In this document: one piece after another, positions 11,547-41,973 of the stretch
Numbering within the stretch: the first letter of the stretch is position 1
Layout of the letters: each line of letters begins with the position of its first letter
Assembly (NCBI GenBank): GCA_025655595.1
Contig: JAHXIO010000002.1
Coordinates: 62,001-126,000 of the forward strand
Length of the DNA: 64,000 nt
Source: Candidatus Thiodiazotropha sp. (ex Monitilora ramsayi)
GTDB taxonomy: Bacteria > Pseudomonadota > Gammaproteobacteria > Chromatiales > Chromatiaceae
Direction of reading: 5' to 3'
Translations under genes and position numbers: made by a program
The notes under the pieces: model-generated
What the model saw: the letters and a program-made list of their open reading frames with translations, nothing else
Told to the model about the DNA's origin: nothing
Database searches by the model: none

Positions 11547-13214
<1,668 letters not shown>

Positions 13215-13225
13215 ACAAAACGCCT

Positions 13226-13710
13226 TAAAGACTCGACTACAAGCGGAATAAACCCATCATCGATATTAATAGTGTCGTTGACGGGTTAAATAATCTCGAT
13301 GGCGATGAAAATATCGTGGCCAACGAGTAAAAAAGAGAGGACAGCAAGTCGAATCTTCTCGGCGTTGAGTAAAAAACCGTCAGCAACGATTTAAATCGAC
13401 TCGTCGTTGGCTAGATAATGAGTCAACGATGACTGATAACGACCCGATGTTGACTTAAAATGCGTCAGAGACGACTAAAATAGACTCGTCATTTACTAAA
13501 AACTCGTCGATGGCGAGTCAAAACATCTCGACGATGAATAAAAAAGTCTCGATGACGACTCGTAACAACCCAGCGTCGATTAAAAATTAGTCATAGATGA
13601 GTCTCGGAGAGTCTCCGTTGACTAAAATTTAATCAATTCCGACTCCCAGCGACTCCTCCTTGAATCGAATTTAATTAACTGCAAGTCAAAAGGAGTCAAT
13701 GGTGAGTAAA
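13226..13710. repeat. Array of ~23 degenerate units with ~21-bp period
   Basis: Directly after ettA the sequence repeats a loose unit of the form CTCG, then 6-8 bases, then GA-N-TAAAA. The base preceding each A-run falls at 13226, 13249, 13267, 13287, 13307, 13328, 13351, 13370, 13392, 13416, 13437, 13456, 13476, 13497, 13519, 13539, 13563, 13581, 13623, 13667, 13687 and 13707; two expected positions (about 13602 and 13644) lack the run. The mean spacing over 23 steps is 20.9 bp. GANTC occurs about 13 times in 480 bp, where about two would be expected by chance. Spacing varies 18-24 bp and most units contain TAA, so it is not coding. No matching known repeat class was recognised. Confidence 0.75.
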
Positions 13711-14093
13711 ACAGACCTGCTGTGTCCGGTCTCAGGCTCACCTTCCCATTCCTCGAATAGTATCGCGACCAGAACCACTTTGTCCCAAGAAAAACGATAA
13801 GTGACAAATGATAATCTTTCGTCTTTTCGGCCGTCACCGACCCCTTTACTTATTTCTTACAGTTGAATCAGCTCACAAATTAAGTAAGCGTAGCGCATTC
13901 GTAATTTGTCGAAACCGCCACGCTTGAAGTATGGGGAGTCTGCCTTTTACCATAAGATATCTATCGACGTGATGGGACTGTTGATCCAGGAGTTTGACCC
14001 CTGAATGGATGCTGCTGTATTCTCATAGATGTTTTCGGCACCAACTTATTTCAGCATCCGGGTTGGTATTTTTTCAAGGACAGACAGATAGTT
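13711..14093. other. Non-coding stretch between repeat array and cassette region
   Basis: About 380 bp with no supported gene. It contains an imperfect inverted repeat (AATTAAGTAAGC ... GCATTCGTAATTTG, about 13877-13909) and otherwise nothing recognisable. Base composition shifts from the phased array into more ordinary sequence. Confidence 0.4.
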
Positions 14094-14264
14094 ATGCCAA
14101 AACCGCTCGACCGCACGTTGCTCCTAAGCAGAATCACTTCCGACCATTATAAGCCCTCCATGGCTATCTCTATGATAATGGAAGGCGTATCAAAACTTGG
14201 AAAAAAGTCCACGGAGATAGACAGACACCTCCTATCTCAGATAACAAAGCGTCTGTCTACATAA
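14094..14264 (+). CDS. Possible small protein of 56 residues, unknown
   Basis: An open frame from ATG 14094 to TAA 14262-14264 encodes MPKPLDRTLLLSRITS and continues with a basic, partly helical sequence ending KRLST. An AAGGA lies about 13 bases upstream, rather far for a ribosome binding site. No family is recognised. It could be a real small gene, the remnant of a longer one or a chance frame; its position next to the cassette region makes a gene-cassette relic possible. Confidence 0.25.
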   Translation: MPKPLDRTLLLSRITSDHYKPSMAISMIMEGVSKLGKKSTEIDRHLLSQITKRLST

Positions 14265-14279
14265 CTGTTATGTGTAAAT

Positions 14280-14660
14280 ATGAAAATCATCACAACATTA
14301 CTCATAATTTTACTTTCAAGTTTTACGCACAGCAATGCAGCTGAGAATATTCTCAATTTAGGTGTAATGTCACATGACTGTAGTAGTTTCAAACCAAGTG
14401 ATAATAAAGCTAATTTACCTGAATATTTCAAATTAACGCCTGTTGAAGCAGCAAAAACGGTTAAGGCTAATTCAAAGTACGGTTGTTTTATAAAAATGGG
14501 TATTGGTGTTTATACTGATGGCAATTATTACTATTTTGCTAACAATAACTTGTTGTTTGGAAAATCAGTAACGTTTGAGCTTATCAAGCAATATTCATTT
14601 GTGGTAAATCCAAACACAGGCAATTTAATCTCAAAACCAAAGTATGAAGACAACACATAA
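14280..14660 (+). CDS. Secreted hypothetical protein, cassette-borne
   Basis: A 126-residue protein with a clear signal peptide (MKIITTLLIILLSSFTHSNA, cleavage before AEN) and a mature part with two cysteines (HDCSSF and YGCFIK) and a Tyr/Asn-rich middle. No family is recognised. The coding sequence is conspicuously AT-rich compared with ettA or the flagellar genes, which indicates transfer. It lacks a ribosome binding site, begins 10 bases after a GTTATGT that resembles an integron core site, and its stop codon lies in the first bases of an attC-like site. These are the usual features of an integron gene cassette. Confidence 0.7.
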   Translation: MKIITTLLIILLSSFTHSNAAENILNLGVMSHDCSSFKPSDNKANLPEYFKLTPVEAAKTVKANSKYGCFIKMGIGVYTDGNYYYFANNNLLFGKSVTFELIKQYSFVVNPNTGNLISKPKYEDNT

Positions 14661-14717
14661 CCATGAGCTACAGTGGATGCTCGCTATCGCTCGCTCCACT
14701 GAGCCCGGGCGTTAAGA
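14655..14717 (+). repeat. attC-like recombination site 1
   Basis: The site runs from ACATAAC to GTTAAGA. TAAC (14658-14661) pairs with GTTA (14711-14714), and the inner arms CAGTGGA (14671-14677) and TCCACTG (14695-14701) are complementary, enclosing GCTCGCTATCGCTCGC. The ending GGGCGTTAAG closely resembles attC simple sites such as those of Vibrio cassette arrays. The next gene starts 7 bases after the site. The outer R'' box departs from the RYYYAAC consensus. Confidence 0.65.
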
Positions 14718-14723
14718 AGCAAA

Positions 14724-15074
14724 ATGAAATATCTGACTTTTGCCGTTTTGTTGGTGTTTCAGACGCCCTTTGTTTTAGCGCAAACGTGCCAAGACGAAGT
14801 TCAAATGTTGAAGTGGGTAGAAAACGCTGATCCTGCGAAAGATGCAGAAAAAGCAATAAAAAGCGGAAACACTAAATTGATAGCCGTTTACGGTTTTGCT
14901 TTATATTTTCCAGGTGTAGATGAAAATCAGGTTACGAAAGCATACGAAACTGGTGATTACATTTTGATAGAAGGTACAGGTGATGATTTATGCTCAGAAG
15001 AGCACGCAAGATTAAATAATATTGCTAATGAGTATGCAGAAACATATAACAAAACCATATCAGGTAAGCAATAA
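14724..15074 (+). CDS. Secreted hypothetical protein, cassette-borne
   Basis: A 116-residue protein with a signal peptide (MKYLTFAVLLVFQTPFVLAQ, likely cleavage after LAQ or before it). The mature part has two cysteines (QTCQDE and DDLCSEE), suggesting a periplasmic disulfide, and is helical and acidic. No family is recognised. The gene is AT-rich, fits tightly between two attC-like sites (7 bases after the first, 4 before the second) and is therefore a typical single-gene cassette. Function unknown. Confidence 0.7.
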   Translation: MKYLTFAVLLVFQTPFVLAQTCQDEVQMLKWVENADPAKDAEKAIKSGNTKLIAVYGFALYFPGVDENQVTKAYETGDYILIEGTGDDLCSEEHARLNNIANEYAETYNKTISGKQ

Positions 15075-15078
15075 TGCT

Positions 15079-15138
15079 TCTTAACCATCGGCTCCAGTGG
15101 ATGCTCGCTGTCGCTCGCTCCACTGAGCCTAGCTAATA
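15079..15138 (+). repeat. attC-like recombination site 2
   Basis: GGCTCCAGTGGA (15090-15101) pairs with TCCACTGAGCC (15119-15129) with one bulged base, a hallmark of folded attC sites. The inner 35 bases (15095-15129) differ from site 1 (14671-14705) at a single position. The left end TTAAC is good. The right end, GCTAATA, departs from the GTTRRRY core, so this may be the decayed last site of the array. Confidence 0.6.
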
Positions 15139-15272
15139 GGGGACAGACCACAGTTTCTATAATAGAAATTTGCAAGGTTAATATATATCGTGATCTGACT
15201 CAGATTATTTACAAATCACACCCCGATACGTCAAGCCCCTCACTACAGGTATAGGCCTAAATCGAGAACATC

Positions 15273-41043: not shown

Positions 41044-41973
41044 TCAGCCCTCACTGGCCTCGATCACCTCACCGCTGTCGATATCCTCACCCCGCTGGAT
41101 GATCAGTTCCACCCGACGGTTCAGTGCCCGATTCTCACGAGTGTCATTGGGTACCAGCGGCCTTGAATCGGCGAACCCCTGGATCAGGAATCGGTTCTGA
41201 TCCAGTGCCGCGTTACTCAGCATCGCGTGTACAACAGTCACTGCCCGTGCCGAGGAGAGTTCCCAGTTTGAGCGAAAACGTTTGGTCGAGATCGGGATAT
41301 TGTCAGTATGGCCCGCGACAATGATCTTACCAGGGGTGTCTGCGAACACATCGGTAATTTTCGAGATGACCTCGAAAAAGTCGGGATTCAGATTGGCACG
41401 GCCGGAGGGAAATGATCCTTTTTCCTGGATGCGGATGATGATTTTGGCACCCTCTCTTTCCACTTCCAGAAGCCCTTCATCGATCTCCTCGTCCAGCTTC
41501 TCTTTCAACTCCTGTGCCTGCGTCTCGACCTCCTGTTCCAGCTTGGCCTGCATGGCTGCCTGTGCGACATCAATGTCTATAGACTCCTGAGCCTGAGACT
41601 CCTCCGCCTGAGCACCCTCCGCCCCAGACTCCTGAGCCTGAGACTCCTGAGCATGCTCTTCCACATCGAGGTTTTCCTTCTCGACATCGGTAGTCATTTG
41701 CCTAATCTCAGTAATGGGAGTCGGTTGAGGAATACCCGGGCTGAACTCCTGCTTGATCACGCTGGTGCCCTTGACGATCTCAGATGCCGGTATCTCCCGC
41801 TGGACACCAAAGGCATCCTTCATCGATTCAGCCATCTTTTTAAAACGAATCGCATCGATTTCAGCGAAGGAGAGCAGCAGCACAAAAAAGCACATCAGGA
41901 GTGACATGAGATCGGCGAACGTTGCCAGCCAGGGCGGCAGGCCCGCATCACATTTGGGGCAATCATCTGCCAT
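41044..41973 (-). CDS. pomB: Flagellar stator protein PomB/MotB
   Basis: The 309-residue peptidoglycan-anchored stator subunit. The single membrane span carries the ion-binding Asp in TFADLMSLLMCFFVLLLSFAE (about residues 18-38), and the C-terminal OmpA-like domain (about 180-300) has IIVAGHTDNIPI, NWELSSARAVTVVHAML and ENRALNRRVELII. Between them lies a Gln/Ala/Glu-rich linker of imperfect AQES repeats (about residues 112-140). Starts with MADDCPKCDAGLP, the cysteine-bearing N-terminus common in PomB. Coupled with pomA four bases upstream. Confidence 0.94.
   Translation of the reverse strand: MADDCPKCDAGLPPWLATFADLMSLLMCFFVLLLSFAEIDAIRFKKMAESMKDAFGVQREIPASEIVKGTSVIKQEFSPGIPQPTPITEIRQMTTDVEKENLDVEEHAQESQAQESGAEGAQAEESQAQESIDIDVAQAAMQAKLEQEVETQAQELKEKLDEEIDEGLLEVEREGAKIIIRIQEKGSFPSGRANLNPDFFEVISKITDVFADTPGKIIVAGHTDNIPISTKRFRSNWELSSARAVTVVHAMLSNAALDQNRFLIQGFADSRPLVPNDTRENRALNRRVELIIQRGEDIDSGEVIEASEG

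Follow-up and report, generated by a model that had tools for sequence, protein, structure and literature searches.

Behind ettA, in the 64,000-nucleotide stretch of Candidatus Thiodiazotropha DNA analyzed here (the window), lies an array of 23 degenerate units that are phased at two turns of the DNA helix. It belongs to a family of arrays present in many copies in four genomes of the genus, and many of these arrays are linked to copies of an integron attI site, upstream of which they are placed. Modeling predicts that the DNA of most of them is curved. We tentatively favor, at a little short of even confidence, the reading that the array stands on the upstream side of a clade-specific integron cassette platform, of a dispersed kind, and serves there as a boundary module of phased bent DNA; the boundary function is what we infer. 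The strongest rival is that the arrays are a neutral palindromic minisatellite.

The array behind ettA

The initial annotation described degenerate units phased at ~21 bp between positions 13226 and 13710. The period and the coordinates both hold, with the first core beginning at 13231 and the last finishing at 13707. Base autocorrelation of 13226-13710, compared as the annotation had proposed with dinucleotide-shuffled sequence (1000 dinucleotide-preserving shuffles), gave clear peaks at lags 21 (0.455, z 9.6), 42 (0.535, z 13.1) and 63 (0.443, z 8.0). All other lags from 2 to 70 were at z 4 or below (lag 3, z 3.0). When the 64-kb window was scanned in 300-bp pieces, lags 42 and 21 at the array were the top two of all lags from 10 to 199. 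The strongest period is 42 bp, a pair of 21-bp units that run in roughly opposite directions, and the annotation had missed it; the peak at 42 exceeds that at 21 because neighboring units tend to be reverse complements.

Units were identified with an iterated symmetric weight matrix, which yielded 167 units with the core ASTCRNCGNYGAST in 13 arrays. The chained search places 23 of these in the window array, at steps of exactly 21 bp in 21 of 22 cases and 22 bp in the remaining one, and over the 13 arrays 141 of 154 spacings are exactly 21 bp. These spacings are supportive only, since chaining rewards 21, and the autocorrelation is therefore the unbiased figure. Of the two kinds of repeat finding that were applied, the weight matrix detected the array and TRF at minimum score 30 returned no row for it. 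(The top-scoring TRF row of the window is a 15-bp tandem repeat of 4.8 copies at 41581-41652.) The units are ~50% alike and have no constant part, in keeping with the view that they are too degenerate for CRISPR or plasmid iterons. Two further observations of the annotation were confirmed: both stretches of the window array that were checked have stops in all six frames, and 13 GANTC sites fall within 485 bp, where ~2.3 are expected at the window rate of 4.7 per kb. Rfam gave no match in the window at the gathering threshold; at a lax threshold, eight loci returned chance microRNA models only, on the integrase-side locus L146.

Table 1 Features of the window and copies of the 160-aa gene family.
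Feature	Position	Strand	Remarks
ettA, host gene	11547..13214	+	555-aa ORF; the array begins ~16 bp past the stop codon
21-bp phased array	13226..13710	+	23 units, core ASTCRNCGNYGAST, A-tract between cores; predicted to be strongly curved
Probable decayed platform region	13711..14250	+	Between the array and the attI core
attI-like core GTCTGTCTACATAACTGTTATG, degenerate	14251..14272	+	Insertion point C-TGTTA; read by eye against the platform on contig C8 of the same genome
Cassette gene 1	14280..14660	+	126 aa; no Pfam or NCBIfam match at E 0.1
attC-like site 1	14655..14718	+	Ends ATAAC ... GCGTTAAG, by eye
Cassette gene 2	14724..15074	+	116 aa; no Pfam or NCBIfam match at E 0.1
attC-like site 2	15078..15139	+	Last of the short cassette array; GTTA end imperfect
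160-aa family copies with an array behind	L149 3922-4401, L144 2051-2524, L150 2702-3130, L164 766-1242, L244 6872-7345		

A dispersed family of arrays

The comparison set comprised 22 Candidatus Thiodiazotropha genomes (clam symbionts), including the window's own genome (G000, 46 contigs) and three that we take to be symbionts of Myrtea (G005), Gloverina (G014) and Monitilora (G018). BLAST within the own genome revealed further arrays on contigs C8 and C26 and weak matches on C9, C1 and others. An 84-column sequence model of arrays with this core (type A), trained on 56 stretches of 13 arrays and referred to as R1, matches this genome at E <= 0.01 in 17 places, the window array and 16 others. 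At the same threshold 5 of the 22 genomes match, with 89 matches in G000, 40 in G005, 32 in G018 and 25 in G014; the fifth, G012, has two weak matches of 46-50 bases at one stretch. Clear type-A arrays are hence found in four genomes, G000, G005, G014 and G018. They comprise about 5-24 units in two-turn phase. Close relatives are not devoid of similar arrays, as the annotation had considered they might be: three of them have many. Arrays with other core types are probably undercounted, because whole genomes were searched by sequence and the 21-bp period was scanned at single loci. Among 116 genomes drawn from the wider family, R1 matched only G000 and G133, a genome of another genus in the same family (E <= 0.001, stricter filters); G005, G014 and G018 were evidently outside this draw, because R1 would have matched them.

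The 555-aa ORF in front of the window array, which following the initial annotation we take to be ettA, is 97% identical in three relatives. In G018 the array behind it is split into two pieces ~4.5 kb apart (C10:29996-34715, L225), and the gap looks as if something had inserted into the array. The sequence downstream of ettA in G014 is differently composed and has AT tracts ~21 bp apart by eye, which the period test (see below) did not confirm. The annotation had raised the question of whether such an array always lies next to ettA. It does not: a clear 21-bp array is present behind ettA in 3 of 48 testable loci from the genus, family and class (G000, G005 and G133; scores 0.18-0.58), two further loci without the gene end being outside the 48, and other arrays lie elsewhere. 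At the ettA locus L042, from another family, 21 is the best period at a score of 0.109, within the noise of the test.

Arrays often lie upstream of attI platforms

A palindromic box, TGTAGGAAnnnGmCTACAGACA, was first spotted beside five arrays and usually stands ahead of an attI copy. In the form TGTAGGAAnnnGnCTACAGACA it occurs behind several arrays, with 9 instances in G000 at up to two mismatches and 0 for the reversed control. At up to one mismatch it is present in 4 of the 22 genomes, exactly the four with clear type-A arrays. Alignment of 16 box loci shows a conserved stretch that in most ends sharply at C-TGTTA, beyond which the sequences diverge. The order of the module is array, ~100-1000 bp, TGTAGG box, mostly an attI copy, and then unrelated sequence with small genes; a 160-aa orphan gene (discussed below) is sometimes situated between array and box.

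Eight platforms were queried for attI homology. Four match the attI beside intI on contig C14 of G000 (88% and 83% over 95-96 bp, 69% over 95 bp and 77% over 44 bp), and the other four match the intI-side attI of G011 or G012 (73-79%). Two intI genes above the family cut-off are present in G000, on C14 and C2, and likewise two in G005 and in G018; G014 has no integrase above that cut-off. In G000, no intI is situated within 20 kb of the arrayed platforms. An attI model (R2) finds 17 sites in G000 (the C14 site included), 21 in G005, 12 in G018, 3 in G014 and 1-6 in each of the other 18 genomes. All 22 genomes therefore carry between 1 and 21 attI-like sites, several of them more sites than integrases above the cut-off, and as far as model matches can tell the dispersed attI copies are a trait of the genus. 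In three of the four array genomes the copies seem to have multiplied, a contrast that may be inflated since all 19 training sites of R2 come from these four.

To relate arrays to platforms, 30 of 31 box loci were fetched and compared with 25 control loci (13 intI and 12 ettA loci) of array-free species. R1 finds a type-A array within 1.5 kb of the box in 20 of the 30 box loci and in none of the 25 controls, and in 20 of 20 the array is upstream of the box. Nine of the 20 loci hold arrays on which R1 was trained; when these are excluded, 11 of 21 remain. Seen from the arrays in G000, 8 of 17 are within 1.5 kb of an R2 site (chance ~1% each), and 6 of the 8 sites concerned are R2 training sites. 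The other nine have no R2 match within 1.5 kb; the window array is one of these, and another has a box ~150 bp away. A period test that is blind to sequence, covering periods from 15 to 27 (13 periods) over the 1500 bp upstream of the box, gave 21 as the best period in 21 of 29 box loci (one locus was too short), and 17 of the 29 scored 0.10 or more. For whole box loci the corresponding figures are 22 and 18 of 30. At attI loci of the other 18 genomes, 21 was best in 5 of 22 and its top score was 0.083; among the 25 intI and ettA controls, one reaches 0.103. Seven of the 30 box loci show an array by neither R1 nor the period test, and in L167 a box-like sequence stands ahead of another gene with no attI visible. 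The training of the models and the finding of box and arrays depend on one another; even so, the untrained loci (11 of 21 against 0 of 25) together with the period test are enough to uphold a link of arrays to platforms. This link supports the earlier suggestion that the place of the window array is a hot spot.

In the window itself, the platform downstream of the array appears to be decayed, and two cassettes with attC-like repeats remain (Table 1). The segment 13711-13824 matches the corresponding place in G018 (L010) with a score of 31.1, compared with at most 21.4 in 30 shuffles, and L010 retains the CTACAGACA half of the box; the other six of seven comparisons of this region were not above shuffles. 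The TGTAGG box is absent from the window at up to three mismatches, and the window has no intI above the family cut-off. R2 misses the attI-like core, whose alignment to the C8 platform is not above shuffles and whose assignment is a reading by eye. Beside the corresponding arrays R2 does find attI, both in G005 (E 4.4e-6) and in G018 (E 2.2e-4). The two attC-like sites share a 48-nt repeat (92%).

Predicted curvature and conserved helical phase

The initial annotation suggested bent DNA and a curvature prediction, and the outcome of the prediction supports that reading. Under a wedge model, the window array has a predicted curvature of 1.30, above all of 150 other 420-bp pieces of the window (at most 1.086). 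Of 11 Thiodiazotropha arrays, 10 exceed this background; for ten arrays, dinucleotide-shuffled versions have means of 1.04-1.07. When the 21 columns were permuted alike in all units, seven arrays had their observed value reached in 0-0.5% of 200 trials. Such controls do not set L156 apart (28% of 100), and L275 is marginal (8%). Column permutation also breaks A-runs and therefore partly measures the tracts themselves. Changing the period to 18 or 26 abolishes the predicted curvature and a period of 23 reduces it, while breaking the A-tracts, which are located between the cores, lowers the value for the window array from 1.30 to 1.13.

Types B (L057, L156 and L169), D (L056 and L054), E and F keep the 21-bp phase with cores other than that of type A. 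In L277 and L275, A/T tracts recur each 21 bp with cores that by eye hardly resemble one another. A/T tracts of three or more occur at 0.62-1.33 per 21 bp in all 15 Thiodiazotropha arrays counted. The phasing of A/T tracts is kept in these arrays while the core sequence changes from one to another.

The following model would accommodate the placement and the predicted shape. Two-turn phasing of A/T tracts is predicted to curve the DNA, and nucleoid proteins of the H-NS/IHF/HU kind may land on the curved stretch or wrap it. Positioned between the host gene and the cassettes, the array might form a boundary that would screen the host gene from the cassette promoter and could set the activity of that promoter. 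One report describes H-NS, IHF and FIS sites in class 1 integron promoters (PMC8876359). In a bolder version, which we think rather unlikely as a whole, two integrases would serve at least ten attI platforms in dispersed places. Each platform would have a promoter box to itself, many would be insulated by a curved array that renews itself, and selection would preserve helical phase and not sequence. In the literature searched, which had most subscription journals outside its coverage, we came across no description of phased arrays at dispersed attI sites.

The 160-aa gene and arrays in another genus

In array-bearing Thiodiazotropha genomes the 160-aa orphan gene has a 21-bp array directly behind it in all five loci (three copies in G000, one in G014 and a broken one in G018). 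Table 1 lists five copies of the family that have such an array behind them. The family members scanned have no Pfam, NCBIfam or PHROGs match at E 0.1. The protein is modeled as helical with medium confidence (mean pLDDT 73), and the model has no PDB fold match at E <= 0.001. Its gene was considered as the maker or binder of the arrays and is not required for them, because G005 has many arrays and no match to the protein at E <= 1e-10. A fragment of the gene in G020 has no array; one in G013 shows weak signs (best period 21 at 0.093, and two 30-base R1 matches at E 0.002-0.005).

G133 carries a 35%-identical relative of the 160-aa gene with an array ~18 bp behind it, in addition to the array behind its ettA. 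Its arrays have the 21-bp palindromic format, are GC-rich and contain few A-tracts. The fractions of permuted controls that reach their predicted curvature are 0.18, 0.415 and 0.05, i.e., not clearly curved, and 0.02 for a fourth. R2 finds no attI on the four G133 stretches fetched. One locus (L243) has both a 27/54-bp palindromic tandem array and a 21/42-bp one, at 2227-2471 and 2743-2950, ~270 bp apart, and the period of the former is not a whole number of helical turns. The G133 arrays are the main evidence that the palindromic 21-bp format may be older or broader than its curvature.

Palindromic units and alternative explanations

Across the 13 arrays, bases facing each other over the A-tract between adjacent units pair more often than expected (z 4.5 for the innermost position and 3.3 for another), with two outer pairs below expectation (z -2.4). 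Facing bases inside one unit pair less often than expected at three positions (z -3.5, -3.2 and -2.9), and units two apart show no pairing excess. In the window array alone the effect is modest, adjacent cores being 56% alike as reverse complements and 49% alike directly. The alternating orientation is a tendency and not strict. RNA folding of the window array is far better than that of shuffles (z -7.3), and folding is also favored at four other loci (two type A, one type D and one weak array; z -2.9 to -4.8) and in a type-B array (z -5.8).

This pattern would suit a neutral or selfish, BIME-like palindromic minisatellite whose alternating units are copied in whole steps of 21 or 42 bp. Individual arrays would then drift towards separate consensus sequences and move along with duplicated attI platforms and the orphan gene, and the phase would be kept because copying adds whole units. 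Besides the pairing and folding, such growth is consistent with the ettA array of G005, which is shorter and differs from that of the window by a ~210-bp block (ten units) plus many substitutions. The A-tract-poor arrays of G133, the existence of a 27-bp array and the arrays behind the 160-aa gene point the same way. We consider this quite possible, if not what we would expect. However, A/T tracts are phased even where the cores are barely alike (e.g., L277, by eye), and in three aligned array pairs small indels are few compared with many substitutions; the G005 and window ettA arrays, for example, align with a one-base gap at either end, and one pair has an untidy start. Moreover, in most arrays the predicted curvature surpasses nearly all column-permuted controls, and in 20 of 20 loci the array is on the same side of the box, ahead of it; drift alone predicts neither.

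A dedicated dimeric DNA-binding protein that recognizes ASTCRNCGNYGAST, with one dimer per two turns, and spreads along the array appears improbable. LacI-type operators have a palindromic consensus with a central CG, which the array core resembles, and the 23 sites of the window array are on one face of the helix. In types B, D, E and F, on the other hand, the phase is the same and the cores are different, and a single protein that reads sequence would hardly fit every array; the array-linked 160-aa protein has neither a match in array-rich G005 nor a PDB fold match. Still less probable, in our view, is insulation at the level of the transcript, in which hairpins of the transcribed array would stop or destabilize read-through from the host gene into the cassettes. 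The favorable folding and the position of arrays directly behind genes would suit it, but any alternating inverted array folds well, and the exact 21-bp phase would be unnecessary. In addition, 13200-14300 contains one terminator-like site, the number expected by chance (1.0), and the arrays in L002 and L003 follow seemingly ordinary terminators, as judged by eye.

A decayed coding sequence with a seven-residue repeat would account for a unit of seven codons, the lag-3 autocorrelation noted above and the G133 and type-B arrays being open in at least one frame; it is very improbable, and it was rejected for Thiodiazotropha arrays by stop counts that are about as expected after column permutation, in addition to the stops in all six frames of both window-array stretches. 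A GANTC methylation cluster, which the annotation had offered as one reading, is hardly credible despite the 13 sites in the window array, as all 10 type-A arrays that were counted are dense in GANTC (11-32 per kb) and all 5 counted arrays of types B and D, which keep the same 21-bp phasing, are at background (0-5.6 per kb); this rules it out as the key feature.

Relation to known systems

Phased A-tract curved DNA upstream of promoters shares with the arrays the A-tracts at whole helical turns and the predicted curvature; here, however, the tracts occur every second turn with palindromic cores between them, in up to 24 units, and in many dispersed copies tied to integron platforms. REP/BIME elements are likewise extragenic, situated behind genes and built of short imperfect palindromes in alternating orientation that grow in tandem. 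The arrays differ in their 21-bp unit, the differing cores between arrays and the strict two-turn phase. REP/BIME palindromes also carry a GTAG/GGAG foot, which is absent from the 167-unit consensus. Plasmid iterons and CRISPR resemble the arrays in having ~20-bp repeats at regular spacing, but here the units are ~50% alike, there is no constant repeat with unique spacers and the arrays lie behind housekeeping genes.

A CALIN consists of attC cassettes without an integrase. The platforms resemble CALINs and integron platforms in having an attI copy (as much as 88% identical to the attI of the genome itself) ahead of unrelated small-gene sequence, and in the attC-like repeats of the window. In contrast to the order intI - attI - cassettes, the platforms examined have no adjacent intI, and array and TGTAGG box are found in its place; three of the four array genomes, moreover, have 12-21 R2 attI matches. 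attI-like sites are reportedly the subject of one published study. Another describes delta-attI sites in cassettes of mobile integrons, so partial attI copies are not new in themselves (PMC12901181). What is documented here is their dispersal in a symbiont genus, as a result of which gene capture could occur at many places from few integrases. If the boundary reading is right, the arrays would be a case of DNA that conserves its helical phase and shape as its sequence turns over, and the many arrays in four genomes would provide a natural replicated series for testing the effect of curvature upstream of a promoter.

Two minor observations concern the platforms. In L052, L157 and L161 (platforms of G000, G018 and G014), the same sequence, starting with TTACATGGACCCGTCCCGG, directly follows the attI core and is perhaps an insertion element that targets attI. 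In L192, from a Thiohalomonas genome, the same TGTAGG box is present from 4423 and is followed ~230 bp on by CAACTGTTAGGC, as read by eye; this is possibly an attI platform outside the genus.
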